The notes under the pieces: model-generated
The model's database searches: none
Told to the model about the DNA's origin: nothing
What the model saw: the letters and a program-made list of their open reading frames with translations, nothing else
Assembly: GCA_021324975.1 (NCBI GenBank)
Contig: JAJPIA010000060.1
Location: 1-34,545 of the forward strand
Source of the DNA: Bacillota bacterium
GTDB lineage: Bacteria > Sysuimicrobiota > Sysuimicrobiia > Sysuimicrobiales > Segetimicrobiaceae
DNA: 34,545 nt
Direction of reading: 5' to 3'
Translations under genes and position numbers: made by a program
Part shown: positions 17,202-34,421 of the stretch, in pieces
How the letters are laid out: every line of letters starts with the position of its first letter
How positions within the stretch are numbered: position 1 is the stretch's first letter

Positions 17202-18641
17202 GTGAACCTCGGGCTGATTGCGCCGGAGTTGTGGTTGGGCCTGCTCGGGCTCGGCCTGCTGCTCGTGGAGATGATCACCGGCTCGGAGAGCAAGCGGGTC
17301 GTCGGGTGGATCGGCGCCGCCGGGCTGGCGCTGGCGCTCGTGCCGTCGTGGGGCCTGCTCGGCCAGCCGGCCCGCTTGATGTTCGGGGGCGCTTACGCGG
17401 TCGACGCGTTTGCCGCGTTCTTCAAGATCGTCGCCGCGGTGAGCGGGATCCTCGTGCTCCTCGCGGCCATGGCGTTCTTCCGCGACCGTCCGGCGGAGCA
17501 CGAGGGCGAGGTGTACGTCCTGATCGTGTTCATGGTGCTGGGCCTCGTGGCGATGGCCGCCGCCGCGGACCTGATCCTGCTGTTCCTCGCGATCGAGTTT
17601 GTATCCCTGATCTCGTACGTGCTCGCGGGCTCACTCAAGGCGGACGCCAAGAGCAGCGAAGCCGGCGTCAAGTATTTCTTCTTCGGCGCCGTGGCGTCGG
17701 CGACCATGCTGTACGGGTTCTCCTACCTCTACGGGGCCGGCGGCAGCACGAACCTGTACCAGCTCGGGCCGCGGCTGGCGGGCCTGCCCACGCCGTTTCT
17801 GGTCGTGGCCGCGGTGCTGGTGCTCGCCGGCCTCGGCTTCAAGACCTCGCTCGTCCCGTTCCATCAGTGGACGCCGGACGTGTACGAAGGCGCCCCGACG
17901 CCGGTGACGGCGTTGCTCTCCGTCGGCAGCAAGGCGGCGGCGTTTGCGGCCCTCCTGCGCGTGCTCTACGTCGCGCTGCCGCCCGGTGCGTGGGTGTCCG
18001 TCCTCGCCGTGCTGGCGGCGGTGACGATGAGCGTCGGCAACCTGCTCGCGCTCTCGCAGCAGAACATCAAGCGGATGCTGGCCTACAGCTCCATCGCGCA
18101 CGCCGGCTATATGATGATCGGCGTGGTCGCGCTCGCCGCGTCGCCGACGCCGATGGGGTCCGGCGTGACCGCGGTGCTGTACTACCTGCTCGCCTACGTG
18201 TTCACCAACACCGGAGCGTTTGGCGTCGTGATCGCGGCCGAGCGCCTGCTGGGGTCCGATGCGATCCCCGACTACGCCGGGTTCGGCCGGCGCGCCCCGC
18301 TGGCCGCGTTTGCCATGACCGTGTTCATGCTGTCGCTCACCGGAATCCCGCCGACCGCGCTGTTCTGGGGCAAGCTGAGCCTCTTCGGCGCGGCGCTGCA
18401 GAGCGGTCTCGGCTGGCTCGCCGTCGTCGGCATCCTCAACAGCGCGCTCTCGCTCTACTATTATCTGGGCGTGGTTCGGGTGATGTACGTTCAGGTCCCC
18501 GCCGATACGGCGCCGGCTTCCGAGGGGCTGCTGACCCGGGCACTCTTGGTCGCGGCCGCCGGCGCGACGCTCGTGCTTGGCATCTACCCCGAGCCGTTTG
18601 TCCGCCTCGTCCAGCACGCCTCGCTTCTGCTTCGAGTCTGA
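17202..18641 (+). CDS. nuoN: NADH-quinone oxidoreductase subunit N
   Basis: A 479-residue antiporter-like subunit (ND2 homologue), the last of the seven membrane-arm genes. Typical segments are LFLAIEFVSLISYVLAG with the channel Glu, GLGFKTSLVPFHQWTPDVYEGAPTPVTALL, SVGSKAAAFAALLRV with the Lys, and QQNIKRMLAYSSIAHAGYMMIG. About 14 membrane helices span the whole length, which is normal. GGGAGG at 17190-17195 supports GTG 17202. It closes the cluster; a stem-loop lies 12 bases after its stop and the following 443 bases are non-coding. Confidence 0.96.
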   Translation: MNLGLIAPELWLGLLGLGLLLVEMITGSESKRVVGWIGAAGLALALVPSWGLLGQPARLMFGGAYAVDAFAAFFKIVAAVSGILVLLAAMAFFRDRPAEHEGEVYVLIVFMVLGLVAMAAAADLILLFLAIEFVSLISYVLAGSLKADAKSSEAGVKYFFFGAVASATMLYGFSYLYGAGGSTNLYQLGPRLAGLPTPFLVVAAVLVLAGLGFKTSLVPFHQWTPDVYEGAPTPVTALLSVGSKAAAFAALLRVLYVALPPGAWVSVLAVLAAVTMSVGNLLALSQQNIKRMLAYSSIAHAGYMMIGVVALAASPTPMGSGVTAVLYYLLAYVFTNTGAFGVVIAAERLLGSDAIPDYAGFGRRAPLAAFAMTVFMLSLTGIPPTALFWGKLSLFGAALQSGLGWLAVVGILNSALSLYYYLGVVRVMYVQVPADTAPASEGLLTRALLVAAAGATLVLGIYPEPFVRLVQHASLLLRV

Positions 18642-18653
18642 GCGTCCATCGCG

Positions 18654-18680
18654 GCACCGCGGCACGAATCCCGGCGGTGC
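18654..18680 (+). terminator. Possible terminator stem-loop after nuoN
   Basis: GCACCGC at 18654-18660 pairs perfectly with GCGGTGC at 18674-18680 across a 13-base loop, starting 12 bases after the nuoN stop. There is no T-run. Its place at the end of a long operon makes a terminator or 3'-end stabiliser plausible, but not proven. Confidence 0.35.
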
Positions 18681-18840
18681 GGCCGCGGCGCGCGCATCCG
18701 GCGTGACCGGGAGACGAGGTTGCCGCGGTTCGCCGGGCCGCGGGGGCAGTGGAGCGATCTTCACCTGCGAGGTAATTGCACCGGCCCGCGCCGGGCGCGA
18801 AAATGTGCTTGCGGATGCGACCGCGCTCGACCGGAGGTGC

Positions 18841-18851
18841 TGAGTGACTCA
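18841..18851. promoter_or_regulatory. Palindrome upstream of the ATPase promoter
   Basis: TGAGTGACTCA is an 11-base perfect palindrome around a central G. Its centre is about 64 bases before the inferred transcription start at 18910, a position typical of activator sites. The flanks do not extend the symmetry. A binding protein is not known; this is a weak candidate. Confidence 0.3.
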
Positions 18852-18873
18852 CACGACCGTATTCGGCTCAACC

Positions 18874-18903
18874 TTGACAGCCGTTCCCGTCGTCTGCTAC
18901 CAT
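18874..18903 (+). promoter_or_regulatory. Sigma70-type promoter ahead of the ATPase operon
   Basis: A perfect -35 TTGACA at 18874-18879, an 18-base spacer, and -10 TACCAT at 18898-18903 preceded by TGC, so also an extended -10. The expected start is near 18910, 175 bases before the first ATPase start codon. In a genome this GC-rich a full TTGACA at the right distance from an extended -10 is unlikely by chance. Confidence 0.7.
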
Positions 18904-18910
18904 GTCGCCG

Positions 18911-18976
18911 GCGAAGGCCTGCCTTTGCGGGCCGCGTGGAAGCGGGAACGGTCTCGTCCACGAGCGCTCTTTTTTT
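18911..18976 (+). ncRNA. Candidate leader attenuator or small RNA: two hairpins and a T7 run
   Basis: Directly after the inferred start, GCGAAGG (18911-18917) pairs with CCTTTGC (18922-18928), 7 bp including one G-T pair. A second, two-tier hairpin follows: CGTGGA (18935-18940) with TCCACG (18957-18962), and inside it GGGA (18944-18947) with TCTC (18952-18955) around an ACGG loop. Seven bases later is a run of seven T (18970-18976). This could end a roughly 66-base RNA, acting either as an independent small RNA or as a conditional terminator in the ATPase leader. The 7-base gap between stem and T-run is longer than ideal. It does not match a riboswitch class I recognise. Confidence 0.5.
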
Positions 18977-18993
18977 GTCTATGCGTAATTTAA

Positions 18994-19021
18994 GCGTGCG
19001 GATGGCAGCGAGTTCGCACGC
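18994..19021 (+). promoter_or_regulatory. Third leader hairpin
   Basis: GCGTGCG at 18994-19000 pairs perfectly with CGCACGC at 19015-19021 across a 14-base loop, downstream of the T-run. It would be present only in transcripts that read through towards the ATPase genes. Confidence 0.4.
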
Positions 19022-19054
19022 GCGCACAGTGCTGCGTGATCCCGCGGGCGTGTA

Positions 19055-19066
19055 GTGCGATCGCAC
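19055..19066. promoter_or_regulatory. 12-base palindrome abutting the first ATPase ribosome binding site
   Basis: GTGCGATCGCAC is a perfect palindrome ending one base before the Shine-Dalgarno stretch GGAGAGGAG (19067-19075); ATG follows at 19085. As DNA it could be an operator; as RNA it is too tight for a simple hairpin but could dimerise. It contains the GCGATCGC octamer, which is simply abundant in some genomes. Confidence 0.3.
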
Positions 19067-19084
19067 GGAGAGGAGCCGGATTCC

Positions 19085-19453
19085 ATGGTCGCCGAGCACA
19101 AGCCTGACGAAGCGCATCGGGCGCTCCGGCCCGAGGAGCGCTTCAAGGAGCTCGTCGCGATTCGGGAAAAGGAGACGGAAGTGCGCTCGAAGCTCGAGGC
19201 CGCGCGGACTCAAGCACACGAGCGGCTCGCGTCCGTGGGTGAGCAAATCAGCTCTCGCCGTGCCGAGGCGATGAAGCAGGCCCAATCGGAGGTGCAGCGG
19301 ATGCGCGCCCAGGGTCTCGCCGAGGCCGAGGCGGAGGCGCGGCGGTTGCTGGAGCAGGCGGAGCAGGAGGCTCGAGCGATCGAGGACCACGTACGGCAGC
19401 GCCGGCAGGCGCTGTTGGACCAGCTCAAGGAGGAGCTTCTGGCCCGCAAATGA
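19085..19453 (+). CDS. atpH: V/A-type ATPase peripheral stalk subunit H/G
   Basis: A 122-residue, highly charged, Ala/Glu/Arg-rich protein predicted to be one long coiled coil from about residue 16 to the end. This fits the G/H (Thermus subunit G, archaeal AhaH) partner of subunit E in the peripheral stalk, which resists rotation of the A3B3 head. Identification rests on composition, length and position as first gene of the operon, as in Thermus; the sequence itself is low-information. ATG 19085 has a strong ribosome binding site GGAGAGGAG nine to ten bases upstream; an in-frame upstream extension to 19055 would cross the palindrome and is less likely. The stop overlaps the ATG of the next gene. 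Confidence 0.82.
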   Translation: MVAEHKPDEAHRALRPEERFKELVAIREKETEVRSKLEAARTQAHERLASVGEQISSRRAEAMKQAQSEVQRMRAQGLAEAEAEARRLLEQAEQEARAIEDHVRQRRQALLDQLKEELLARK

Positions 19454-21411
19454 TCCGCGCGATGAAGCGAGTATATCTCCTGTACACGCAGGAGAAGCAG
19501 GACGAACTCGTCAGCCGCCTCCAAAAGCTCGGCCTGCTCCACCTGGAGGAGAGCCGGCTCGACGGGGTGGCTCTGGACGGCGGACGCCCGCGGCGCGATC
19601 TCGGCGAAGATCGCAAACGGGTCGAGAACCTGCTGTTGAAGGCGCACGGTACCCGCGACCTGCTGGCCGAGGTTCTCGCGATCGCGCCTCGCGATGCCGC
19701 CCGCGAAGCATATCCGACCCGCCTCGAGGGTCTCTATCAGCAGTTGCGCGATCGGCTGGATCCCCTCGAGGGCCGTTTGAAGTCGCTCGTGGCCGAGCGG
19801 CGGGAGCTCCGTGATCATCTCGCCGCCGGGGAGCGGCTGGCCGATGCGGTGCGCGTGTCGGAAGAACTGCTCAAGGCGCTGCCGCAAACGGGCTACACCT
19901 TCCTCCCGCTTATTCTGGCTCCCGAGCAGCGGCCGTTACTGGCGGGGATCCGGCAAACGCTGGAGCAGGAAGGCGCCGGCCGGTTCGTGGTGGCGCAGGA
20001 GAAGCTCGGGGTCGACCGGATCGAGCTGATCGTGGCTGCGGAGCCCGAGTACGCGTCCGCGGCGAGCGAATACCTCGAGAGTCTCGGCGTCCGGCCCCTG
20101 GCGCTGCCGTCACACGTCGCCGGCGGCTTCGTCGAGGGGATCGCGCAACTTCGGGCCGAGGCCGTGACGATTCCGCGCCGCCTGGTCGAGATCGACGAAG
20201 AGCTCCGCGTGCTCGGCCGCGAGCACGCGGCCGACATCGTGGCGTTGACGAACGCGCTCGAAAACCGTCTGGCCCAGCTCGAGGCCGCGGCGGTGTTCGG
20301 CTACACGGACTACACGCTGCTCATCGCGGGGTGGATCCCCCAGGACGGGTTTGCAGGGTTTCAGGCCGCCCTGCACCAGGAATTCCCCGGGATCATCATC
20401 CGCGAGGAGGCCCGAGGCCGCGTTGACGACGAAGAGCCCGTCGCCTTCAAGGAGGGGCGCTGGGCCCGTCCGTACCAGTTGTTCCTGCAGGCGTTCGGCA
20501 CGCCGAAGGCTGGGACCGTCGATCCGATCCCGACGATCAGCATCTTCTTCCCGATCTTCTTTGGCCTCATCCTCGGCGACGTCGGGTACGGGCTGGTCGT
20601 GCTGGCGCTGGCGTTGTGGGGGCTGCGTGGATTCCCGGGCGCCGGCGGCGCGCTCAAGCGGATGTCGGCCTCAGACGCCGGGCGCGAGGCCCTCACCATC
20701 ATGGTGCACGGCGGGGCGTTCACCGTCGTGCTGGGCTGCGTGTTTGGCGAGTTTTTCGGGCTCACCTTTCAACAACTCGGGATCCCCCGCGTCGGCGCGT
20801 GGCCGTTCAGCCGCGTGGAGAGCGCCATCGTCTTTCTGCTCGCCACGGTGGTCCTCGGCGCGGCGCAGGTGACGCTGGGGTTCATCTTCGGGATCGTGAC
20901 CGCGGTGCATCAGGGGAGCCGCAAGCATCTCGTCGTGAAGATCGGGCTCTTCATGTCGTTCGTCGCCTTCACCCTGATCTTCGGGCGGTTGATGGCGATC
21001 GTGCCCTCCGCGCTGCTCCTGCCGGGCATCGTCCTCTTGGTCCTGGCGCTGCCGCTCCTGATCTACGGCGGCGGCACCATGGTCATCCTCGAATCCCTGA
21101 GCCCGTTCGTGCACATGATCTCCTACGCGCGCATCATGGGATTTGGAGTGGCGAGCGTCGTGCTCGCCGAACTGATCAACACGTTCGCCGGCGCGGTCGG
21201 CGGGGTCGGCCACGTCGTCGTCGGCGTGCTCCTGGCCGCGATCGTGATTCTGGTCCTGCAGCCGGTCAACCTCGTCTTGGGCGTCTTCGAGGGCACGATC
21301 CAGTCCGTGCGCCTCCACTGGGTGGAGTTTTTCGAGAAGTTCCTCTTGGAGCAGCTGGGGGGAAAGCCCTACCGGCCGTTCAAGGAGAAAGAAGCTGCGA
21401 CAGAACCGTGA
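19450..21411 (+). CDS. atpI: V/A-type ATPase subunit I (a-subunit homologue)
   Basis: A 653-residue membrane subunit that forms the ion half-channels beside the rotor ring. The first ~340 residues are a soluble two-lobed domain with long coiled coils (residues about 85-140 and 225-280), which contacts the peripheral stalks. From about 350 onward there are roughly eight membrane helices. ISIFFPIFFGLILGDVGYG, MVHGGAFTVVLGCVFGEFFG, and the helix SYARIMGFGVASVVLAELIN carrying the essential Arg are typical; the C-terminus VEFFEKFLLEQLGGKPYRPF is also characteristic. Length matches Thermus subunit I (about 650). ATG 19450 overlaps the preceding stop by four bases. The next gene begins 28 bases after the stop. 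Confidence 0.96.
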   Translation: MIRAMKRVYLLYTQEKQDELVSRLQKLGLLHLEESRLDGVALDGGRPRRDLGEDRKRVENLLLKAHGTRDLLAEVLAIAPRDAAREAYPTRLEGLYQQLRDRLDPLEGRLKSLVAERRELRDHLAAGERLADAVRVSEELLKALPQTGYTFLPLILAPEQRPLLAGIRQTLEQEGAGRFVVAQEKLGVDRIELIVAAEPEYASAASEYLESLGVRPLALPSHVAGGFVEGIAQLRAEAVTIPRRLVEIDEELRVLGREHAADIVALTNALENRLAQLEAAAVFGYTDYTLLIAGWIPQDGFAGFQAALHQEFPGIIIREEARGRVDDEEPVAFKEGRWARPYQLFLQAFGTPKAGTVDPIPTISIFFPIFFGLILGDVGYGLVVLALALWGLRGFPGAGGALKRMSASDAGREALTIMVHGGAFTVVLGCVFGEFFGLTFQQLGIPRVGAWPFSRVESAIVFLLATVVLGAAQVTLGFIFGIVTAVHQGSRKHLVVKIGLFMSFVAFTLIFGRLMAIVPSALLLPGIVLLVLALPLLIYGGGTMVILESLSPFVHMISYARIMGFGVASVVLAELINTFAGAVGGVGHVVVGVLLAAIVILVLQPVNLVLGVFEGTIQSVRLHWVEFFEKFLLEQLGGKPYRPFKEKEAATEP

Positions 21412-21439
21412 AGTCGTCGAAAAGGGGGGAGTAGTGCTC

Positions 21440-21763
21440 ATGAGTCGAAAGACGGCAATCCAGATCGCCGCCGCGGTCGTGCTCTTCAACGTGCTCCTGG
21501 TGGGGCTTGCGATTCGCGCGTGGGCCCAGGCGGCGACGGCTCCCGCCGGCGGGCTGACGGATGCCGGCCTCAAAACGGTCGGGGCGGGGTTGGCGTTCCT
21601 CGGCGGCGCGATCGGCACCGGGGTGGCCCAGTCGCGGATCATCGCGGCGGTGCTCGGCGCGGTGGCCGAGGACCGGTCGCAACTCGGGTTCGGCATCTTC
21701 TTGATGGCCTTCCCGGAGACGTTGGTCATCCTCGGGTTCGTCATGGCGTTCATTCTCCGTTGA
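21440..21763 (+). CDS. atpK: V/A-type ATPase subunit K (rotor-ring proteolipid)
   Basis: A 107-residue proteolipid that forms the rotor ring. Residues 6-31 look like a signal peptide ending AWAQA, as in the Thermus subunit, followed by an Ala/Gly/Thr linker and two membrane helices (about 44-72 and 82-106). The ion-binding Glu is E93 in FPETLVILGFVMAF, and LGAVAEDRSQ is the polar loop between helices. It is therefore a two-helix ring subunit, not the duplicated four-helix eukaryotic form. A GTG at 21434 is in frame, but GGGGGGAG at 21424-21431 is only two bases from it and eight from ATG 21440, so ATG 21440 is preferred. Q64 in helix 1 might matter for ion choice; H+ versus Na+ cannot be settled here. 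Confidence 0.93.
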   Translation: MSRKTAIQIAAAVVLFNVLLVGLAIRAWAQAATAPAGGLTDAGLKTVGAGLAFLGGAIGTGVAQSRIIAAVLGAVAEDRSQLGFGIFLMAFPETLVILGFVMAFILR

Positions 21764-21767
21764 TGCG

Positions 21768-22349
21768 ATGGATCTGCTAGCTCAGATCGAGCACGAGGGC
21801 GCACAAGAGGCCGAGCGGATCGGCGCGGAGGCCGAGGCGGAGGCCAAGGCGCAGCTGTCGCGCGCCGAGCAGGAGATCATCGCCGAGGTCGAAGCCTACC
21901 GGCAAAGCGAGCGTCACCGCATCGAACAGGAGCAGCGCCTGATCGTGAGCCGGGCGCGGGCCCAAGCGCGCGCCATCTTCTTGAAGGCCAAGAGCCGCGC
22001 GGCCGAAGCGCTTTTCGCGAAGCTCGTGGAGGAGACGACGAACGTGCGGGCCGACGCGGCGCGCTACCGGACGTTCCTCGAGCGGTGTCTGCGGGAGGCC
22101 GAGCAGGAGGTGCGCGGGCCCCTGGTACTGCACGCGGATGCGGCGGATCAGACCGTCATCGAGGAGTTGCTCCGCGGCACCGCCCACCGGCTGGGCGGGC
22201 CGATCAAGACGGCGGGCGGGTTCATCGCCACCGACGCCGGGGGCCAGCTTGTCCTGGACAACCGCCTCGAGACGCGCATCGCAAATCTCCGGCAACGCGC
22301 CCGCTCCGAGGTGGGTAAGGCGTTGTTCGTCGGCACCGTCTCCGCCTAA
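21768..22349 (+). CDS. atpE: V/A-type ATPase peripheral stalk subunit E
   Basis: A 193-residue stalk protein. Residues 1-85 are an almost unbroken charged helix (AERIGAEAEAEAKAQL and onward) that should coil with subunit H/G. The C-terminal part, about 95-190, is the globular head that binds the top of the A3B3 hexamer; VVLHADAADQ-like LVLHADAADQTVIEELL and GGFIATDAGGQLVLDNRLETRI are typical of the family. Length is close to Thermus subunit E (188). It starts five bases after atpK. Its stop TAA is two bases before the ATG of the subunit C gene. Confidence 0.93.
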   Translation: MDLLAQIEHEGAQEAERIGAEAEAEAKAQLSRAEQEIIAEVEAYRQSERHRIEQEQRLIVSRARAQARAIFLKAKSRAAEALFAKLVEETTNVRADAARYRTFLERCLREAEQEVRGPLVLHADAADQTVIEELLRGTAHRLGGPIKTAGGFIATDAGGQLVLDNRLETRIANLRQRARSEVGKALFVGTVSA

Positions 22350-22351
22350 CA

Positions 22352-23425
22352 ATGTCGTACGAGTACCTCAACACGCGGCTCCACTTCATGATCGTCAAGC
22401 TGCTCAAACCGGCGCAGTACGAGCAGTTCCTCGAGTTGCGGGACCTGGGCGACCTGATTTCCGCGCTGGCGGAGACCGACTACGGCCCGGATCTGGAACG
22501 CCACGCCGTCGAGCACGCGGAATACCCGCTCGTGGAAGCCGCGCTGATGCACAACGTCCAGCGGCATTTCAACAAGCTGTGGTCCATGGCGTTTGCCGAC
22601 GCGCGGCCGCTGGTCCGCATCCTGCTCGAGCGCTTCGAAGTCTTCAACCTCAAGACGATCTTGCGGGGATTTCACGCCGGGACCGATCCCGCGGAGACCG
22701 CGCGCGGGCTCTTCCCGACGATCCTCTACCCGACGTCGTTCTACCAGGAGCTCCTCAAGCGCGACGGGATCGGCGGCGTGATCGATTACCTGCTCACCGT
22801 CGGGAACCGGTACTACAAACCGCTGGCGGAGAGCTATCCGAGCTACGAAGCGAATCACAAGCTGGCGGTCCTGGAGAGCGCCGTCGATTCTTACTACTTC
22901 GCCGGCTCGCGCCGGGTGTTGCAGGCCGTCGGCGACGAGAACGCCGTGGCGGTCCGCCGGACGCTCGGCACCGAGGTCGACCTGTTGAACCTCGTGTACG
23001 CGCTGCGCGTGGTCGAGGAAGGCGTCGAGTCCGAGGAGCGGTACCGGTACATCCTGGACGGCGGCGAGCGCCTCTCCCGGGCTTTCATTGAGGAGCTGAT
23101 CGGCAGCCCCGACAAAGCGTCGTTCTTCCGCAAGCTCGACGGCACCGAGTACGCGTCCCGGGCCGGTGGGTTCGAGGACACGCTCGGCGTCGGCGAGTTT
23201 CAGGAGCGCCTGGAGAACTATCTGTATCAAGAGATGTGCCGCTACGATCCGGGGCGGACGTTCGACATCCACATGGCCTCGGTGTACGTCTGGCGGAAGT
23301 ACGTGGAGATGACGGACCTGCGGGTGATCGCGAGCGGGCTGTGGCGGCGCGTGCCCCGCGAGGAGATCGAGCGGAAGATGATCTGGGTCAAGGGCGTGAC
23401 GCCCGAGCGGGCGGTGGCGGCGTGA
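22352..23425 (+). CDS. atpC: V/A-type ATPase subunit C (rotor coupling, d-like)
   Basis: A 357-residue soluble subunit that caps the rotor ring and connects it to the central shaft (D and F). It is mostly helical with the threefold repeated architecture of the C/d family. Recognisable stretches are [11 protein letters not shown] at the N-terminus, [29 protein letters not shown] and, near the end, [20 protein letters not shown]. The tail [17 protein letters not shown] is short. Length is a little above Thermus subunit C (323). Its stop TGA overlaps the GTG of the subunit F gene, showing tight coupling. Confidence 0.93.
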
Positions 23426-23741
23426 AGCCCGTCGTTGTGGCGACGAGCGATCTGGCGGACGGGTTTCGCCTCGCGGGGATCCCCGTCTACGAGGTCGACG
23501 ACGGCCCGAACGCGCCCGCGGGGCAGACCCGGGCGATCATCGAGGCGGTGCTCGCCCGGAACGACGTCGGCATCGTGCTCGTGGACGAGCGGTACATGGC
23601 GGACTTCGAGCAGGCCTTCGGGGGGCGGGAACTGCCGATGGTCGCCTCCTTCCCGGCCGAGGAAGTTCACCGGGACGAGACCTACATCGACGAGTTGACC
23701 CGGCGCTACCTGGGCCAGAAGATCTACGTGGAGGGGTCCTG

Positions 23742-23742
<1 letters not shown>
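23422..23742 (+). CDS. atpF: V/A-type ATPase subunit F
   Basis: A 106-residue small subunit of the central shaft that binds subunit D and tunes activity. The first ~80 residues form the CheY-like fold: [36 protein letters not shown] and [10 protein letters not shown] are family-typical. The C-terminal part is the mobile helix that reaches towards the head. GTG 23422 overlaps the preceding stop; although the frame is open upstream, homology starts here. The stop overlaps the ATG of the catalytic subunit A gene by one base (TGATG). Confidence 0.94.
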
Positions 23743-25499
<1,757 letters not shown>

Positions 25500-25504
25500 G
25501 ACGA

Positions 25505-26908
25505 ATGGCGACGGGACTGTACGGCAAGGCCTATCGGAAGATCCAGGACATCAAGGGGCCCCTGATCTTCCTCGAGCCGGTCAAAGACGTCCGGTACGGG
25601 GAGCGGGTCACCATCACCGACAGCCAGGACCACAGCAAGGGCGGCCAGGTCCTCGATGTCGGGGAGCGGGCGATCGTCATCCAGGTGTTCGAGGGCAGCG
25701 ACGGCCTCGACAAGAAGGCGACCGCGGTCTTCTTCACGGGCGACGTCGTGAAGCTCGGCCTGTCCGAGGACATGTTGGGCCGCGTATTCGACGGTTCCGG
25801 CAAGCCGGCGGATGGCCTCGGCGACGTGTACCCGGAGGCCGAACTGCCGATCAACGGCAGCCCCCTCAATCCCGTGGCCCGCCGGCAGCCGTTCGAGTGG
25901 ATACAGACCGGCATCTCCGCGATCGACATCATGAACACGCTCGTCAAAGGCCAGAAACTGCCGATCTTCACGGGTGCGGGGCTGCCGGCAAACCGGGTCG
26001 CCGTCCAGATCGCGCGGCAAGTCATCCGGCAGTCAGGCGAAGAGCTGATCGTGGTGTTCGCCGGCATGGGCATCACGTCGCGCGAGTACAGCTACTTCTA
26101 CCGGGAGTTCCAGGAGAGCGGCGCGCTGGCCAACTCCGTGCTGTTCCTGAACCTGGCCGATGACCCGACGATCGAACGCATTTTGACGCCCAGGCTTGCG
26201 CTCACGACCGCCGAGTACTTCGCGTTCACCAAGGGGCGCGACGTGCTCGTGATCATGACCGACATGCTGAACTACGCCAACGCGCTGCGGGAGATCAGCT
26301 CCGCGCGCGAGGAGATTCCGGGACGGCGCGGGTATCCGGGCTATCTCTACACCGACCTGGCGACCAACTACGAGCGCGCGGGCATCGTCAAGGGGCAGCG
26401 GGGCAGCATCACACAGCTGCCGATCGTCACGATGCCGAACGACGACATCACGCACCCGGTGATCGATCTCACCGGCTACATCACGGAGGGCCAGATCATC
26501 CTGGCGCGCGAGCTCGACCGGAAGGGCTACTACCCGCCGATCAATCCGTTGCCCAGCCTCTCCCGGCTGATGAACCTCGGTATCGGCAGTGACAAGACCC
26601 GCGAGGACCACAAGCAGCTCTCGGACCAGTTGTATGCGCTCTACGCGCAGGGCAAGGATCTGGAGAAGCTCACGGCGATCATCGGGAGCGAAGGGCTCGG
26701 CGCGGCGGAGAAGCAGATCATCGACTTCACCACGCGCTTCGAGAGCGAGTACATCAACCAGGGAGACCAGCCCCGCAGCCTGGAGGAGAGCCTGGCGCTC
26801 GGCTGGGATCTGCTCTCCGGCGTCGCGCGCGGAGAGTTGCGCCGGGTGGAGGACAAGTACGTCGACAAATACATGACGAAGCGGGCGGCCAGAGCGGCCG
26901 GCGACTAG
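25505..26908 (+). CDS. atpB: V/A-type ATPase regulatory subunit B
   Basis: A 467-residue non-catalytic partner of subunit A. Its equivalent of the Walker A loop, FTGAGLPANRVAVQIA near residue 156-171, lacks the Gly-Lys-Thr/Ser, which is the standard mark of subunit B. Other conserved parts are VEGPLIF-like IKGPLIFLEPV, GRVFDGSGKPADG, NPVARRQPFEWIQTGISAID, GITSREYSYFYREF and LTDMLNY-like MTDMLNYANALREIS. Length matches Thermus subunit B (478). It is the last of the tightly packed genes; 225 bases without a gene follow before the subunit D gene. Confidence 0.97.
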   Translation: MATGLYGKAYRKIQDIKGPLIFLEPVKDVRYGERVTITDSQDHSKGGQVLDVGERAIVIQVFEGSDGLDKKATAVFFTGDVVKLGLSEDMLGRVFDGSGKPADGLGDVYPEAELPINGSPLNPVARRQPFEWIQTGISAIDIMNTLVKGQKLPIFTGAGLPANRVAVQIARQVIRQSGEELIVVFAGMGITSREYSYFYREFQESGALANSVLFLNLADDPTIERILTPRLALTTAEYFAFTKGRDVLVIMTDMLNYANALREISSAREEIPGRRGYPGYLYTDLATNYERAGIVKGQRGSITQLPIVTMPNDDITHPVIDLTGYITEGQIILARELDRKGYYPPINPLPSLSRLMNLGIGSDKTREDHKQLSDQLYALYAQGKDLEKLTAIIGSEGLGAAEKQIIDFTTRFESEYINQGDQPRSLEESLALGWDLLSGVARGELRRVEDKYVDKYMTKRAARAAGD

Positions 26909-26962
26909 TGCTTCATCTCGTATGCGCAACGAGGGTAGACGGGCCGGGCGGGCCTGGCCGGA

Positions 26963-26981
26963 GCGGGCGTTCGACGCCCGC
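26963..26981 (+). promoter_or_regulatory. Hairpin in the unusual atpB-atpD gap
   Basis: GCGGGCG at 26963-26969 pairs perfectly with CGCCCGC at 26975-26981 across TTCGA, 55 bases after the atpB stop. The remaining gap to 27133 shows no convincing gene or promoter. With no T-run it could be a partial terminator, a processing site or a stability element that lowers subunit D relative to A and B. Confidence 0.4.
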
Positions 26982-27133
26982 GATGCTTACAGCTGCGTGG
27001 CCTAACTTTCCTTGCGCTGCGGACGAAGCGAAGGCACGGCACCCATCAGGCGTCGGTGCGTGGAGCGGAGGACAGGTCCGCCCGGCACGAGCCCTTGCCG
27101 AAGTAATGCGATGACGCACTAGGAGGCACCGCG

Positions 27134-27811
27134 ATGGCGGTTGAATCCGTCAAGACCACGCGGGACGAGCTCCTCCGGACGCGGCAGGAGCTGAAGATCG
27201 CCCAAGACGGCAAGGACATTTTGGAGAAAAAGAAGGAAGCGCTTCTGAGCCGCTTCCTGAACATGGTCCGGGCCTACAAGGGCAAGCGCGAGGCCCTGTT
27301 GGACGACATCAAGCACCTGAAGGACACGCTGGCCCTGACACGCGCCCGCGAGGGAACCGTCGCCGTCCGCTCGCTGGCGCTGGCGACCAGCCAGGACCTG
27401 TCCTTGGAGATCTCCAAGGACAACGTCATGGGGACCAAGATCTTTCACATGGTCCACACGGCGCTGCTGCGCGACATGCTGTCGCGCGGCTACAATCCGG
27501 CCAGCATCAGCAGCCGGATCGAATCTCTGGCAGCGACGTCCGAGCGCCTGCTCGACAAGTTGCTCGCCATCGCGCACATCGAGCACAATCTCAAGACGGT
27601 CGGCAAAGAGATGCGGGCGTTGAATCGAAAGATCAACGCCCTGGAGGAGTCGATCATCCCGAACCTCCGGATGAGGCTGCGGTACATCCAGGATGCGCTC
27701 GAACAGCACGAGCGCGAGGAGCTCTTCCGGCTGAAGATGATCAAGCGCGTGCAGGCGGCCAAGGTCGAAGCGGCCGGCAGCTCACCCGCTGTGCCCGCGG
27801 CCGCCCTGTAG
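27134..27811 (+). CDS. atpD: V/A-type ATPase central shaft subunit D
   Basis: A 225-residue subunit, the main rotating shaft inside the A3B3 head. It is a long antiparallel coiled coil: residues 1-70 (VKTTRDELLRTRQELKIAQ and on) and about 125-205 (LEESIIPNLRMRLRYIQDAL), with a short globular middle. These are textbook family segments. The Ala/Pro/Ser-rich last 15 residues are extra. A full consensus ribosome binding site AGGAGG (27121-27126) lies seven bases before ATG 27134, the strongest in the operon, in keeping with independent re-initiation after the long atpB-atpD gap. The Clp1-like gene begins 47 bases after its stop. Confidence 0.96.
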   Translation: MAVESVKTTRDELLRTRQELKIAQDGKDILEKKKEALLSRFLNMVRAYKGKREALLDDIKHLKDTLALTRAREGTVAVRSLALATSQDLSLEISKDNVMGTKIFHMVHTALLRDMLSRGYNPASISSRIESLAATSERLLDKLLAIAHIEHNLKTVGKEMRALNRKINALEESIIPNLRMRLRYIQDALEQHEREELFRLKMIKRVQAAKVEAAGSSPAVPAAAL

Positions 27812-27858: not shown

Positions 27859-28776
27859 GTGATCGCGGGGTGGCGTGCGGTCGTCCGGGCCGTGGTCGAT
27901 GTCCCCGGGACCGTGATGATGCTCGGGGCCGTCGACGTCGGCAAGACGACGCGCGCCGCGGTGCTGGCCAATGTCGTGTGCCGCGTGGGGCGGCGGGTCG
28001 CGATCGTGGACGCCGACATCGGTCAATCGGACCTTGGGCCTCCCACCACGGTGGGTCTCGGTACGCTGGATCGCCCGGCGCGGCGGATGACCGAGATCCC
28101 GCTCCGCGCCATGCACTTCGTCGGCGACACCTCCCCGCAGGCGACCCAACGGTTCCTCACGGCGGGCATCCGGCGCCTGGTCGCGACGGCGCGCGAACGC
28201 GGTGCCGCAACTGTGATCGTCGATACCACCGGCTGGGTCGAGGGGCGGGCGGGCATCGCCGCCAAACTCCGTGAGGTGGAGGCCGCGGCGGCGCGCCACG
28301 TCGTGGCGATCCAGCGGGATGATGAAGTCGAGCCCATCCTCGAGCGGTTGCCGGCCGGGGTGTTGGTGCACCGCCTGCGCCCCCACCCGCGAACCCGGCC
28401 CCGGTCGGGGGTCGAGCGGCGCGCTTTTCGCGAGCGACAGTTTGAGCGGTACTTCCGCGGCGCCGCGACCCGGGTCCTCGATCTTCGAGTTCTGCGTCAA
28501 GAGCGCGCGGTAAGTTACGCCGGGCGGTACATCGCGCCGGCGGACGTCGTGACCGGACTGCCGTACCGCGAGCTGCGTCACCGGCTCGTCGGGCTCGCCG
28601 ATGATGCGGGTGGGCTGATGGCGCTCGGGACCGTGACCGGCGTTCGGGCGGGCGGCGCCGCGGTGGACGTGTTTGCGCCCCCGCCTCTTCAGGATCGCAT
28701 CAGCACGCTTCAGTGGGGAGCGCTCCGCGTGTCGCCCGCCGGCCGCGAGGAAGGCCGCACGCGTGGAGCCGCGTGA
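27859..28776 (+). CDS. Clp1/Grc3-type polynucleotide 5'-kinase-like P-loop protein
   Basis: A 305-residue protein whose first half is a Clp1/Grc3 P-loop domain. Walker A is GAVDVGKTT (23-31). DADIGQSDLGPPTTVGLG (51-68) is the family's second motif, and VDTTGWVEGRAG (121-132) matches the Clp1/Grc3 signature NTxGWVxGxG. In eukaryotes and archaea these proteins phosphorylate RNA 5'-hydroxyl ends; in bacteria the family ('Clp1/GlmU family') is uncharacterised as far as I know. Residues 133-230 include a basic stretch (HPRTRPRSGVERRAFRERQF) that could contact nucleic acid, and the last ~70 resemble the small C-terminal beta domain. GTG 27859 lies 11 bases after a GAAGGGAT-type site. It follows atpD by 47 bases and overlaps the DUF881 gene. 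Kinase activity is inference. Confidence 0.82.
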   Translation: MIAGWRAVVRAVVDVPGTVMMLGAVDVGKTTRAAVLANVVCRVGRRVAIVDADIGQSDLGPPTTVGLGTLDRPARRMTEIPLRAMHFVGDTSPQATQRFLTAGIRRLVATARERGAATVIVDTTGWVEGRAGIAAKLREVEAAAARHVVAIQRDDEVEPILERLPAGVLVHRLRPHPRTRPRSGVERRAFRERQFERYFRGAATRVLDLRVLRQERAVSYAGRYIAPADVVTGLPYRELRHRLVGLADDAGGLMALGTVTGVRAGGAAVDVFAPPPLQDRISTLQWGALRVSPAGREEGRTRGAA

Positions 28777-29533
28777 GGTCCGACCGGCGGGCGCGCGGAC
28801 CATGCTCGCGGCGCAACCCTGGCAGCTTGCGCTGACGGCGGTGGCCGTCGTCGTGGGGTTCGTCCTCGGGGTCCAGGTCCGGACGGAGCGGTCGATCGAG
28901 ACGAATCTGCAGGTTACCTCCGGGCGGCTCGGCGAGGTCGCCTACCGGTACCGGCAGGTCGAGGCGCGCCAGGCGGCGCTTCGCAGCCGGCTCGCGGAGT
29001 TGCGTCAGGAAATCGCGGACGAGGAGCAGCAGGCGGCGGCGGGGCGCGAAGCGACGGCGGCGCTCGCCGCCGATCTCGCGCAGTTGCGCACCCTCTCGGG
29101 GTTGACGCCGGTGCACGGACCGGGCGTGCTCGTGGTGATCGCGGACAGCACGCGGCCGCTCAAGCCGGGGGAGGATCCCAACCTGGTGCTCATTCATTAT
29201 TCCGACGTGCATGCGGTCGTCGCGACGCTGTTCGCCGCGGGGGCCGAGGCCGTCGCCGTCAACGGCGAGCGGGTGGTCGGCACGACCGGCATCGCCTGCG
29301 TCGGCACGACGATCCTGTGCAACGCGCGCCGGCTCGCGCCGCCGTACCGGATCGAGGCGATCGGCGATCCACACGTGCTCCTGGCCGCCGCCGTCGCGCG
29401 CGGCGGGATCCTCGACGAGTTGCGCGCGTTCGGGTTTCCGGTGGCGGTGACCGCCGAGAGCGACGTGCGGCTGCCGGCATATACCGGCACGTTTGTGCAC
29501 CAGTTCGCCACGCCGGTTGAGACCGGGAGGTAG
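28763..29533 (+). CDS. DUF881 protein (YlxW/YlxX-like), membrane-anchored
   Basis: A 256-residue protein with one N-terminal membrane helix (about 20-38), a coiled coil (about 45-100, with QARQAALRSRLAELRQEI) and a DUF881 domain from about 105. That domain is recognised by LTPVHGPGVLVVIADS, NLVLIHYSDVHAVVATLFAAGAEAVAVNGERV, and TTGIACVGTTILCNARRLAPPYRIEAIGD. Homologues often lie in cell-division gene clusters with sbp, ftsA and ftsZ; their biochemical role is unknown. GAGGAAGG at 28747-28754 is eight bases before GTG 28763, inside the preceding gene; ATG 28802 is the alternative, shorter by 13 residues. It ends five bases before the DUF1290 gene and is cotranscribed with it. Confidence 0.88.
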   Translation: MEPREVRPAGARTMLAAQPWQLALTAVAVVVGFVLGVQVRTERSIETNLQVTSGRLGEVAYRYRQVEARQAALRSRLAELRQEIADEEQQAAAGREATAALAADLAQLRTLSGLTPVHGPGVLVVIADSTRPLKPGEDPNLVLIHYSDVHAVVATLFAAGAEAVAVNGERVVGTTGIACVGTTILCNARRLAPPYRIEAIGDPHVLLAAAVARGGILDELRAFGFPVAVTAESDVRLPAYTGTFVHQFATPVETGR

Positions 29534-29537
29534 AGAC

Positions 29538-29903
29538 ATGGTGATTCCCATTCTCGGACTGTTAGCGGGGCTCGCGCTCGGGCTGCTGGTGAGCTTCCAA
29601 GTTCCCCTGACGTACGTCAAATACAGCGCGATCGCCATCCTGGCCGCCGTGGACACCCTGCTCGGCGGCGTGCGGGCCCAGTACGAAGCGCGATTCGACC
29701 TGCGCGTGTTTCTGTCGGGGTTCGTCGTCAACACGGTGTTTGCGGCGGGCCTGACGGCGCTAGGGGACCTGCTCGGGCTGGACATCTATCTCGGCGCGGT
29801 CGTCGCCTTCAGCATCCGGATCTTCAACAACATCGGGTTCATCCGGCGGGACCTGCTGGGGCTGGTGTGGAAGGCGGCGCCGCTCGAGGCGGGCGAGACG
29901 TAG
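29538..29903 (+). CDS. sbp: DUF1290 small basic family membrane protein
   Basis: A 121-residue protein with about three membrane helices (residues 3-22, 25-42 and 55-82). The segment LGLLVSFQVPLTYVKYSAIAILAAVDTLLGGVRA (shown only as a landmark by its ends), FLSGFVVNTVFAAGLTALGDLLGLDIYLGAVV and the end AFSIRIFNNIGFIRRDLL are characteristic. The family is named after the Bacillus sbp gene beside ftsA/ftsZ and has no known function. Here it is paired with the DUF881 gene, as usual, but the division genes themselves are not in the window. GGGAGG before ATG 29538 is a plausible ribosome binding site. A strong inverted repeat follows 14 bases after the stop. Confidence 0.92.
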   Translation: MVIPILGLLAGLALGLLVSFQVPLTYVKYSAIAILAAVDTLLGGVRAQYEARFDLRVFLSGFVVNTVFAAGLTALGDLLGLDIYLGAVVAFSIRIFNNIGFIRRDLLGLVWKAAPLEAGET

Positions 29904-29917
29904 TCCGGCGCTCGACC

Positions 29918-29951
29918 CCGTCCGCGGATCCGGGCGGCCGATCGCGGACGG
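29918..29951 (+). terminator. 9-bp inverted repeat between sbp and gap
   Basis: CCGTCCGCG (29918-29926) pairs perfectly with CGCGGACGG (29943-29951) across 16 bases. It lies in the 114-base gap before gap. No T-run follows at once, though the next bases (GGAAAATCATTTCC, near 29960-29973) form an AT-richer mini-palindrome. It may end the ATPase/Clp1/sbp transcript or sit in the gap leader. I found no clear promoter in the gap. Confidence 0.45.
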
Positions 29952-30017
29952 CGCACCTGGGGAAAATCATTTCCGACAGCGGACGGGCGCGTCGGTCCGC
30001 CGGAGGAGGGGCGTGGG

Positions 30018-31022
30018 ATGGCACGCATCGGGATCAACGGCTTCGGTCGCATCGGCCGGCTCGTGCTGCGCGCGATGCTTGAGCGGCATCCAGGGCTGGA
30101 GGTCGCCGCGGTTAACGATCTGACGGACGTGCGGACGAACGCGCATCTGTTCCGGTACGACAGCACGTATGGGCGGTTCGGGGGGAGCGTGGAGGCGGCG
30201 GACGGCGCCATCGTCATCGACGGGCGCACGGTCCAGGTGCTCTCGGAGCGGGACCCCGCGAAACTGCCGTGGCGGGCTCACGGCGTCGATCTCGTCGTGG
30301 AATCCACCGGGCGTTTCACAGACGCGGCACGGGCGGCGGGGCACCTCGAGGGCGGCGCGCGGCGCGTGCTAATTACCGCGCCGGCCAAGGGCGAAGACGT
30401 GACGGTCAACATGGGCGTCAACCACACCGCGTACGATCCCGCGAAGCACCGGATCGTCAGCAACGGATCGTGCACGACCAACTGCCTGTCCGTGACGGCG
30501 AAGGTGCTCTCGCAGGCGTTCGGGATCCGGGGCGGGTTCATGAATACGGTGCACTCGTATACGAACGATCAGGTGATCTTGGATACGGTGCATCACGATC
30601 TCCGGCGGGCGCGGGCGGCCGGGTTAAACATTATTCCCACGACGACCGGGGCCGCCAAGGCAATCTCACTGGTGTTGCCGGAACTCGTGGGCAGGATGAA
30701 CGGTCTTGCCCTCCGGGTGCCCACGCCGACCGTGTCGATGGTGGACCTCACGGTGAGCCTGGAGCGGCCGGCCGGCGTGGACCAGATCAACCGCGCATTC
30801 CGGCAGGCGGCGGACGGCGAGATGCGCGAGTATCTCGGCTACACCGAGGAGCCGCTCGTGTCGATGGACTTCAAAGGCGATTCCCGTAGCGGGATCGTTG
30901 ACGGCGCGTCGACCATGGCCCTCGGCGATCTCGTGAAGGTGCTGTCGTGGTACGACAACGAGTGGGGGTACTCTTGCCGCGTCGCCGATCTCGCGCACTA
31001 CATGCTCGAGCGAGGCGCCTGA
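30018..31022 (+). CDS. gap: Type I glyceraldehyde-3-phosphate dehydrogenase
   Basis: A 334-residue enzyme converting glyceraldehyde 3-phosphate to 1,3-bisphosphoglycerate with NAD. The nucleotide motif [10 protein letters not shown] opens the protein; N33-D34 in AAVNDLTD favours NAD. The catalytic Cys is C152 in [10 protein letters not shown], where the usual SNAS has become SNGS, and the partner His is H179 in [23 protein letters not shown] near the end is fully typical. GGAGGAGG at 30002-30009 supports ATG 30018. It heads a gap-pgk-tpiA-secG unit, the common arrangement in many Gram-positive-related lineages. It can serve glycolysis or gluconeogenesis; the presence of YvcK in the window suggests regulation of that branch, but that is inference. 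Confidence 0.97.
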
Positions 31023-31068
31023 GCACTCGAGCCGCCGGCGCGGAGCGCCCGCGGCGGAGGGACTGGTG

Positions 31069-32247
31069 ATGCGGAAGAAGACGATTCGTGACGTCGACGT
31101 GCAGGGACGCCGCGTCTTCGTCCGCGTCGACTTCAACGTGCCGTTGGAGCACGGCCGCATCACGGACGACCACCGGATCGTCGCCTCGCTCCCCACGATC
31201 ACCAACTTGCTCGACCGCCGGGCCGCCGTCGTCCTCGCGTCGCACCTGGGCCGGCCGAAGGGGCCCGATCCCGCGCTCCGCATGAATCCGATCGCGTCGC
31301 GCTTGAGCGAGTTGCTCGGGCGGCCGGTGCGGAAACTGGATGATTGCGTCGGGCCGGCCGTTGCGGACGCGGTTGCCGCGCTCGGGCCGGGGCAGACGGT
31401 GCTGCTCGAAAACCTCCGGTTTCACAAGGAGGAGGAGGCCAATGATCCCGCGTTTGCCAGGCAGCTCGCGTCGCTCGCCGACCTCTACGTCAACGACGCG
31501 TTCGGCACGGCGCACCGCGCACACGCCAGCACGGCGGGCATCGCGGCGTACTTACCGGCCGTCGCCGGCCTCCTGATGGAGCGGGAGCTGGAGTTCCTCG
31601 GTAAGGTGCTGGAGCGGCCGCAGCGTCCCCTGGTCGTGATCATGGGCGGGGCCAAGGTCGGGGACAAGATCGGCGTCATCCGGAATCTCCTCCGGCTGTC
31701 GCAGACGATGCTGTTGGGCGGGGGGATGTGCTACACATTTCTCCGCGCCGCCGGGGCCGAGATCGGGGCGTCGTTGGTCGAGCAGGACCGGCTGGACCTT
31801 GCGCGCGAGCTTACCCGGGAAGCCGAGCAGCGCGGGGTGCGCCTCCTCTTGCCGGTGGACGTAGTGGCGGCCGAGCGGGTCGAGGCGGGCGCCCCCACCC
31901 GCACCGTCGACGCACGGGCGATTCCCGCCGGGTGGGCCGGCGTCGACCTCGCGCCGAGGACCATCGCGACGTTTGCCGCGCCGATCGCCTCCGCGGGCAC
32001 CGTTCTGTGGAACGGGCCGATGGGTGTGTTCGAGATTCCGGCGTTTGCGGAAGGTACGCGGGCCATTGCGAGGGCGGTCGCGGAATCCTGCGCCGAGTCC
32101 GTCGTGGGCGGGGGCGACACCGCGGCGGCGGTGGAAGAGTTTGGGTACGCGGACAAGATGACGCATGTCAGCACCGGCGGGGGCGCCTCCCTCGAATTCA
32201 TGGAGGGCCGGACGCTGCCGGGCGTCGCCGTGCTGCAAGATGCCTAG
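31069..32247 (+). CDS. pgk: Phosphoglycerate kinase
   Basis: A 392-residue cytoplasmic enzyme that transfers the acyl phosphate of 1,3-bisphosphoglycerate to ADP. The N-terminal signature [19 protein letters not shown] with substrate Arg and Asp residues is present, followed by ASHLGRPKG. In the C-terminal nucleotide domain [18 protein letters not shown] and [15 protein letters not shown] are standard, and [13 protein letters not shown] closes the domain. Length is normal. GTG 31066 is in frame, but GGAGGG at 31056-31061 is better placed (seven bases) for ATG 31069. It is 46 bases after gap, and its last codons overlap the start of tpiA by eight bases. Confidence 0.97.
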
Positions 32248-33013
32248 TCCAGGGAGCGGCGCGGCGCGTGTCCCCTGCGTCGCGGCCAACTGGAAGATGC
32301 ACCTGACCCGCGAGACGGGCGCGCGGCTCGCCCGCGACGTCCTCGCGGCCGTGGGCGAGGTCGCGGGGGCGGAAGTGATCCTGTGCCCGCCCGCGACGGC
32401 GCTCGATGCCGTGGCACGAGTGCTCGACGGAACCCGGATTGGCTTGGGCGCCCAAACGATGCACTGGGAATCGCAGGGCGCCTACACCGGCGAGATCAGC
32501 GCGCCGATGCTCGTAGACCTCGGATGCCGCGCCGTCATCCTTGGGCACTCGGAGCGCCGACAGTACTTCGGTGAGCGTGACGAGGACGTCGGCCGCAAGG
32601 TGCGGGCCGCGCTGGCCCACGGCCTGACGCCCATCGTCTGTGTGGGCGAGGGCCTCGACGAGCGCCGGCGCGGGGGGACGGACACCGTCGTTAGCCGGCA
32701 AGTGGCGGCGGCGGTCGCCATGGCGCCGCCCGAGCGCCTGGCCGCGCTGGTCGTCGCCTACGAACCCATTTGGGCCATCGGCACGGGCTTGACCGCCACG
32801 GGCGCCGAGGCGGCCCGGGTCGCGGCATTGATCCGCACCCGAATTGGCGCCGTGCGTGACGCTGAGGGCGTGCGCGTCCTCTACGGCGGGAGCGTCAAGC
32901 CCGCGAACATCGGCGAGTTCCTCGAGGAGCCGGGCATCGACGGCGCGCTCGTGGGCGGCGCCAGTCTCGACGCGGAGGCGTTTGCGGCGATCGTCCGGGC
33001 AGCCGCCCGTTGA
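32240..33013 (+). CDS. tpiA: Triose-phosphate isomerase
   Basis: A 257-residue TIM-barrel enzyme interconverting dihydroxyacetone phosphate and glyceraldehyde 3-phosphate. Catalytic residues are in place: N17 and K19 in ANWKMH, H103 in GHSERRQYF, and E175 in [11 protein letters not shown]. The phosphate-gripping loop that follows and [12 protein letters not shown] near the C-terminus are typical. The frame extends upstream, but ATG 32240, overlapping pgk by eight bases, gives a short nine-residue lead before the barrel and is the only reasonable start. With gap and pgk it provides the triose-phosphate segment of glycolysis. The secG gene follows after 62 bases. Confidence 0.96.
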
Positions 33014-33075
33014 GACTTGGACAGCGGCTTGGGCCGTGTGTTAGTGTAGAGAGGTTCTAGCGTGGGGGTGCATCA

Positions 33076-33306
33076 GTGAGCACCATTGTTTTGATCATTC
33101 ATCTCATTGCCGCGGCCGCCGTCATCGGCGTGATCGTGCTGCAGGGGCCGAAGGGCGAGGGCCTCGGCTCCATCGGAGGCGGTGGCGCGCGGTTGTTCCA
33201 CGGCCCCAGGCCGAGGGAGACGCTGTTTCTCCGGGTGACCGCGTCGCTCGCGATCGTGTTCGGCATCACGTCGTTGGTTCTGGTCCTCACCAACTTCGCT
33301 CGCTGA
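33076..33306 (+). CDS. secG: Preprotein translocase subunit SecG
   Basis: A 76-residue membrane protein of the SecYEG export channel. Two helices (about 3-22 and 53-72) flank a Gly-rich cytoplasmic loop, GPKGEGLGSIGGGGARLF, which is the family hallmark. SecG aids insertion and movement of preproteins with SecA. The start is GTG 33076; a GGGGGTG stretch is a possible ribosome binding site. The gap-pgk-tpiA-secG order is frequent in bacteria, and E. coli also has a tRNA-Leu gene close to secG, so the placing of the tRNA-Leu 1.2 kb further on is a loose parallel only. Confidence 0.95.
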   Translation: MSTIVLIIHLIAAAAVIGVIVLQGPKGEGLGSIGGGGARLFHGPRPRETLFLRVTASLAIVFGITSLVLVLTNFAR

Positions 33307-33320
33307 AACCCTGTTCCCGG

Positions 33321-34391: not shown

Positions 34392-34421
34392 TTGACAGCG
34401 TTTGGGGGGCGTTCGTATAAT
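34392..34421 (+). promoter_or_regulatory. Consensus sigma70 promoter of tRNA-Leu
   Basis: Perfect TTGACA (34392-34397) and perfect TATAAT (34416-34421) separated by 18 bases. The expected start is near 34428, 33 bases before the mature tRNA. This is the strongest promoter in the window, as expected for a stable RNA gene. Confidence 0.88.

Follow-up and report, generated by a model that had tools for sequence, protein, structure and literature searches.

The window, that is, the whole 34.5-kb stretch of DNA analysed here, belongs to a 4.43-Mb genome (G000) and contains the junction between a nuo operon and a V/A-type ATPase operon. The gene upstream of the junction is nuoN (NCBIfam TIGR01770, E 1.6e-112), and the two long genes preceding it look by eye like nuoL and nuoM. 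A gap of 443 bp (18642-19084) leads from nuoN to the ATG at 19085 of the first ATPase gene. This gene encodes an atpH-like (G/H) stalk subunit, whose Pfam match (PF16999, E 3.8e-4) is below the curated cut-off. The remaining subunit genes were assigned from profile matches, with F named from its position and open reading frame. A search of G000 for ATP synthase genes returned matches only to the A and B subunits of this operon, and the V/A-ATPase is apparently the sole ATP synthase of the genome. The features are as follows:

17202-18641, + strand: nuoN, directly preceding the gap that holds the leader
18874-18903, + strand: predicted sigma-70-type promoter with extended -10 (TTGACA 18874-18879, 18-nt spacer, TACCAT 18898-18903, TG 18895-18896)
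18911-18976, + strand: predicted leader RNA released on premature termination, ~66 nt, placed from the promoter position
18916-18933, + strand: hairpin 1 (GGCCTGC/GCGGGCC), overlapping the 5' arm of the putative terminator; not conserved as a structure
18920-18968, + strand: putative terminator stem in the register of the relatives (18920-18927 with 18961-18968; 18929-18933 with 18955-18959)
18929-18969, + strand: putative terminator hairpin, the window's own minimum-energy fold, 16 pairs, ending exactly at the U-tract
18970-18976, + strand: U7 tract of the putative terminator, abutting 18969, then a conserved G
18994-19021, + strand: third hairpin, 7 bp (18994-19000 with 19015-19021, 7/7 pairs), at the junction with the swapped-in operon
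19055-19066, + strand: 12-base palindrome adjoining the Shine-Dalgarno sequence; no more frequent than chance, and imperfect in G002 (by eye)
19085-19453, + strand: atpH-like (G/H) stalk subunit gene, first gene of the V/A-ATPase operon
19450-27811, + strand: V/A-ATPase genes I, K, E, C, F, A, B and D

The predicted promoter and terminator

A preliminary description of this DNA had reported a TTGACA/extended -10 promoter followed by two hairpins and a T7 run, with a third perfect 7-bp hairpin beyond the run and a 12-base palindrome next to the ribosome binding site. All of these are present at the positions listed above. Its remark that long T-runs are rare here also holds, since no other run on the + strand of the window reaches six T. 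The window is 68.7% G+C and has one A6 and no A7 on the same strand, and T7/A7 runs average 0.2 per window in 15 shuffles. A second promoter-like match, TTGACA-18-TATAAT, occurs at 34392-34421.

Transcription was assumed to start 7 nt after the -10 (18911). The candidate terminator hairpin is GC-rich and stable (-18.9 kcal/mol over 41 nt) and the U-tract follows it directly, as in intrinsic (Rho-independent) terminators. Unlike these, which lie behind a gene, the terminators considered here would come ~31-64 nt into the predicted transcript that they cut. In the window, the element stands between the promoter and the first gene of the operon, which is the position of an attenuator. Terminators were scored (d) with a d'Aubenton Carafa-type formula, whose zero is uncalibrated for this organism. 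The window's terminator scores 21.5, a value reached by 0/60 shuffles, though 6/60 exceed zero. Folded as a whole, 18910-19090 is no better than shuffles (z = 0.14), and the 70-nt leader fold of the window gives z = -1.65 against shuffles (p 0.063). Hairpin 1 and the terminator hairpin overlap and are mutually exclusive.

Conservation in related genomes

Leaders were collected as the region ahead of atpH at 36 loci, of which 35 came from 40 AtpI matches and the last is L018, an outside contig whose leader is counted with those of the window's family (f1). The leader of G011 was taken from another contig (L068). The AtpI matches left out are those of G034, G040 and G042 (contig ends), that of G013 (partial match) and one copy in G026 (C1:746138), where no such promoter was found. 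G026 has two different V/A-ATPase subunit I genes, at C1:459601-461523 and 746138-747991, and the copy at 746138 is without a promoter-hairpin leader. Families f5 and f7 are represented by one leader each. nuoN lies upstream of the leader in 35/36 cases, the 36th being at a contig end, and another gene intervenes in one of those 35 (G033, L047); this gene (L047 500-1018) looks DinB-like by eye.

The promoter, the hairpin and the U-tract are conserved, unique in their genome and syntenic in position. A DNA search of 61 genomes returned, besides a long match in G002, a 56-bp match in the congener G001, in which the core at 18929-18983 is 50/56 identical (89%) and likewise stands ahead of a V/A-ATPase operon. 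In the gap before the -10, 25-nt bins are 16-64% identical between the window and G001; the binned comparison is usable to about 19005, the end of the G001 slice. In G001 the T7 is followed by GTCTATGGGAGTGTCC and then by the atpH ATG. The promoter, hairpin and T-run are found between nuoN and atpH in 11/12 f1 genomes and in L018, and the one f1 genome without a leader in the set is 64% complete. TTGACA with a spaced -10 is present in all 12 f1 leaders, including that of L018, whose T-run is T5 then A. Thus the layout is syntenic across species (12/12 f1 leaders, 7 with d > 0). The distance from the U-tract to the atpH start is 14-22 nt in 9/12 f1 leaders, which places the hairpin in the 5' UTR of the atp mRNA.

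Within G000 the layout is confined to this locus. A pattern of TTGACA, a -10 and a T6 52-80 bp later has 13 distinct sites in 43 genomes, and 11 of these are the atp leader; the single site in G000 is that of the window. The reversed pattern occurs only in G038, twice, and not in G000. The forward pattern also picked up two promoter-hairpin-T-run layouts elsewhere in G007 and G008 (L060 and L067, minus strand, around 1501). A covariance model (R1) was built from the 12 f1 leaders including the window, so that matches to these are by construction. It matches the window at 18920-18977, and a search of the 43 genomes with stricter filters gave nothing besides its own leaders below E 0.038.

The stem shared by the relatives has 13 pairs, of which the window forms 10 (the exceptions are two C.C and one U.U) and G002 forms 12. 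The minimum-energy hairpin of the window uses a different lower stem and still ends at the T7. In the 12-row alignment, the 13-pair stem is paired in 82.1% of cells, and sliding the 3' arm lowers this to 31-42%. Three of its pairs have changes on both sides, compared with six when the stem is slid by +1, and a C-G to U-A change is common to the window and G002. Column shuffles reach the observed value in 8/500 cases for both-side cells, 39/500 for the paired percentage, 100/500 for the covariation score, 118/500 for pairs with both-side changes and 311/500 for pair types. Only the both-side cells stand out. RNAalifold arrives at almost this stem; it finds a single compensated pair, and its covariation term is 0.16. 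Folded one by one, the f1 leaders rarely beat shuffles (p < 0.05 in 2/12). We regard the covariation as modest, and because of this the case for the terminator stem is built on the conserved layout and pairing. The preliminary description had named conservation of the stems upstream of the atp genes in relatives as the thing to look for. Layout and pairing are indeed kept and compensatory changes are few, and the leader thus passes that comparison.

The same position is occupied by hairpins of different sequence in two other families, f2 and f6. Overall, d exceeds zero in 19/36 leaders: 7/12 in f1, 5/8 in f2, 7/8 in f6 and 0/8 in f4, f5 and f7 together. The real d is reached by 0/60 shuffles in 8/12 f1, 5/8 f2 and 7/8 f6 leaders. 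Five f1 leaders have d at or below zero, and L018 with its T5A has d -13.2. In f2, CCCAGGA...CCTGGG-TTTT is present in 5/8 leaders (d 8 to 32), and 6/8 fold with z -3.1 to -4.3; one (L047, G033) keeps the hairpin and has no T-run. The f5 and f7 leaders and two f2 leaders of genus g16 (L036, L052) have no terminator. Each of the eight f6 leaders has TTT or TTTT behind a hairpin, and in seven of them d > 0. The hairpin and U-tract are often stronger in f2 and f6 than in f1. The f4 leaders have no proper U-tract and d < 0 in 6/6, and 3/6 fold better than shuffles (p < 0.05). Counted from the assumed start, the terminator ends at about +59 in the window and at about +31 to +46 in f2 and f6. Over f1, f2 and f6 its place is behind the promoter, at about +31 to +64, and in f2 and f6 only 4-12 nt precede the hairpin.

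Of the other pieces, the third hairpin and the palindrome fall outside this conserved core, and hairpin 1 is not conserved. Hairpin 1, or the 5' segment that holds it, is stable in the window (p 0.016), while G001 gives 0.084 and the mean z over the 12 f1 leaders is -0.52. It was rejected as a conserved antiterminator, since p < 0.05 is found in the window only and 0.084 is the lowest p among the other 11 leaders. Perfect 7-bp hairpins are common in the window (144, with 85 in shuffles), and thus the third hairpin alone means little. The 12-bp palindromes number 23, with 25.7 in shuffles. Since the atpH start is 14-22 nt past the U-tract in 9/12 f1 leaders, there is no room in these for the third hairpin or the palindrome, and both were dropped as parts of a device. 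An H-type pseudoknot between the hairpin 1 loop and the 3' arm, drawn by eye in g1 and g2, was discarded because stem 1 pairs poorly in g3 and L018. The ATG within the -10 of the window opens a reading frame but is upstream of the predicted start and absent (by eye) in G001 and L018, which removes it as the start of a leader peptide, and no conserved leader open reading frame was seen.

Origin of the ATPase operon behind the leader

The genes on both sides of the ATPase operon resemble those of the congener. The window NuoN is 82% identical to that of G001 and 88% to that of G002 (C-terminal 249 residues), and the downstream GAPDH is 83% and 91% identical, respectively. Overall, the flanking genes (17202-18641 and 27859-34361) are about 64-92% identical to their G001 counterparts; for subunits I, A and D the range is 28-58%. 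The window AtpI is 28% identical to that of G001, 90% to that of G002 and 70% to that of L018. The AtpA and D subunits of the window are 57.5% and 37% identical, respectively, to those of G001. The AtpA of G001 itself is 87-89% identical to six f1 members compared and 70-76% to six other members of the order.

An AtpA tree was calculated from 38 rows (30 loci of the order, 7 from other phyla, and L018 with 37% of columns; the midpoint root is for drawing only). In this tree G001 falls into a group of 28 rows of the order (98/99). The window, G002 and L018 form a group (100/100) outside it, and 5/7 rows from other phyla make a third group beside those two. On these comparisons, the V/A-ATPase cluster at 19085-27811 is xenologous. 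The operon of the window is foreign to the order and has been exchanged in place, with the promoter and the leader staying behind. Thus the leader has outlasted its original genes. That G002 still forms 12 of the 13 pairs of the shared stem after the exchange suggests that selection has continued; the stem of the window is weaker.

L018 (DOUU01000237.1) is filed under a Deltaproteobacteria MAG, but its NuoN matches those of the genus at 77% (window) to 85% (G001) identity. It is probably a misassigned contig or bin. At L018 795-897, about 103 bp after the T-run resemble the start of G001 atpH in register (63%, E 3e-5). This could be a relic of the old atpH start between the leader and the swapped-in operon; we word it as a possible relic because unrelated GC-rich matches reached E 2e-4.

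Within one genus, this leader thus stands before two ATPase operons that are only distantly related, which is a natural experiment. It separates control bound to the locus from control bound to the enzyme, and it makes this question testable. Among the literature matches listed on operon replacement, none concerns a V/A-ATPase leader.

Attenuation and competing explanations

We suggest, with a probability of about 0.58, that the 5' leader of the V/A-ATPase operon holds a promoter-proximal intrinsic terminator, that is, an attenuator without a sensor of its own. RNA polymerase would start near 18911 and transcribe the hairpin at 18929-18969 and the U7. Part of the polymerases would then release an RNA of ~66 nt, and the rest would continue into atpH-D. 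The share of read-through would set, and may regulate, the amount of ATPase. With a bare terminator this share would be either fixed or set by the polymerase and general factors. We infer the start site, the termination event, the read-through share and any regulation from the arrangement of the letters. If it terminates as predicted, the element would attenuate an operon for a V/A-type ATP synthase. The preliminary description had proposed a conditional terminator controlling the ATPase genes. The part that stands is a terminator-like hairpin and U-tract, conserved between the promoter and atpH. The assembly of all the pieces into a single device does not, since hairpin 1 is unconserved, the palindrome is at chance and the third hairpin lacks room in 9/12 f1 leaders.

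A survey of premature 5' terminators describes attenuators of unknown signal (Genome Biol. 2010, PMC2965389). As far as the main text of that survey goes, its examples share with the present one a Rho-independent terminator between the promoter and the first gene, syntenic across species; they differ from it in that here the operon is that of a V/A-ATPase and no sensor or antiterminator was found. The terms 'ATP synthase' and 'atp operon' have no occurrence in that main text, with the tables lying outside it. A streptococcal study (PMC3675131) describes a small RNA mutant with more ntp (V-type ATPase) transcript, which is a different arrangement. Among the literature matches listed, judged by title and opening of the abstract, none reports an attenuator of a V/A-ATPase operon.

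The main rival explanation is that the hairpin ends the nuo operon and that its place behind the atp promoter is a coincidence, with atp transcripts passing unregulated. Since nuoN is almost always upstream (35/36) and only 2/36 gaps have a terminator with d > 0 before the promoter, the hairpin may end nuo transcripts. The hairpin length limit was 50 nt in this upstream-gap scan and 62 nt in the leader scan, and L026 and L027 score lower in the former for this reason. Two single cases point the same way: the f7 leader (L024) has no terminator of its own and one with d 17.6 upstream of the promoter, and in G033, where a gene separates nuoN from the leader, the U-tract is gone and the hairpin stays. 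However, an element that served nuo only would be free to sit upstream of the promoter, whereas in f1, f2 and f6 it is downstream and must act on atp transcripts too, and in 9/12 f1 leaders it directly precedes the atpH ribosome-binding region. We therefore consider an exclusively nuo-serving terminator unlikely. The two roles can coexist, and a leader terminator would probably also stop read-through from the nuo operon.

Hairpins near the 5' end of an mRNA, as in the ompA leader, can have a stabilising role. A protective hairpin of this kind on the ATPase mRNA, with the U-tract as a standby site for the ribosome or S1, would have the 5'-end structure in common with the leaders studied here. 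It would also fit f4, where structure is found without a proper U-tract and half of the leaders beat shuffles. Against it, U-tracts abut the hairpins in three families (f1, f2 and f6), the window has no second run like its T7, and the terminator score lies above that of shuffles. We think this role improbable.

The leader position before an operon is common to riboswitches and leader-peptide attenuators. A ligand-sensing switch, in which hairpin 1 and the terminator exclude each other, draws on the overlap of a stable hairpin 1 with the terminator 5' arm in the window. However, none of the 12 f1 leaders gave a conserved 5' alternative fold, that of the window being non-significant in the other 11, and the 4-12 nt ahead of the hairpin in f2 and f6 (assumed start) leave no room there for an aptamer or leader peptide. 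Unlike such systems, the leader also has neither an aptamer match nor a conserved leader open reading frame. The window has no Rfam match at gathering score (the best weak one is DUF3800-VI, 14.1 bits with a cut-off of 35, E 4.3), in agreement with the earlier statement that it could not be matched to a known riboswitch class. Since a conserved antiterminator is missing and two families have so little sequence before the terminator, we judge a riboswitch very improbable; the same two points argue for a bare terminator instead of a classical switch.

A stand-alone small RNA of ~66 nt with targets elsewhere we also judge very improbable. The promoter and terminator do delimit a short transcription unit, but outside the stem little of the sequence is kept once the genus is left. 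In addition, all the leaders examined precede atp genes, and in 9/12 f1 leaders only 14-22 nt separate the U-tract from the atpH start. R1 with strict filters found no strong second locus. Such an RNA is possible as a by-product of termination.

For the sensor-less attenuator itself, one speculative extension may be mentioned, to which we give little weight. The leader terminator might throttle what is apparently the sole ATP synthase, with read-through set by the state of the polymerase (nucleotide levels, elongation rate, NusA/NusG), which would amount to feedback from the energy state. Control of this kind would go with the promoter instead of the proteins, and would thus have survived the replacement of the entire ATPase operon.
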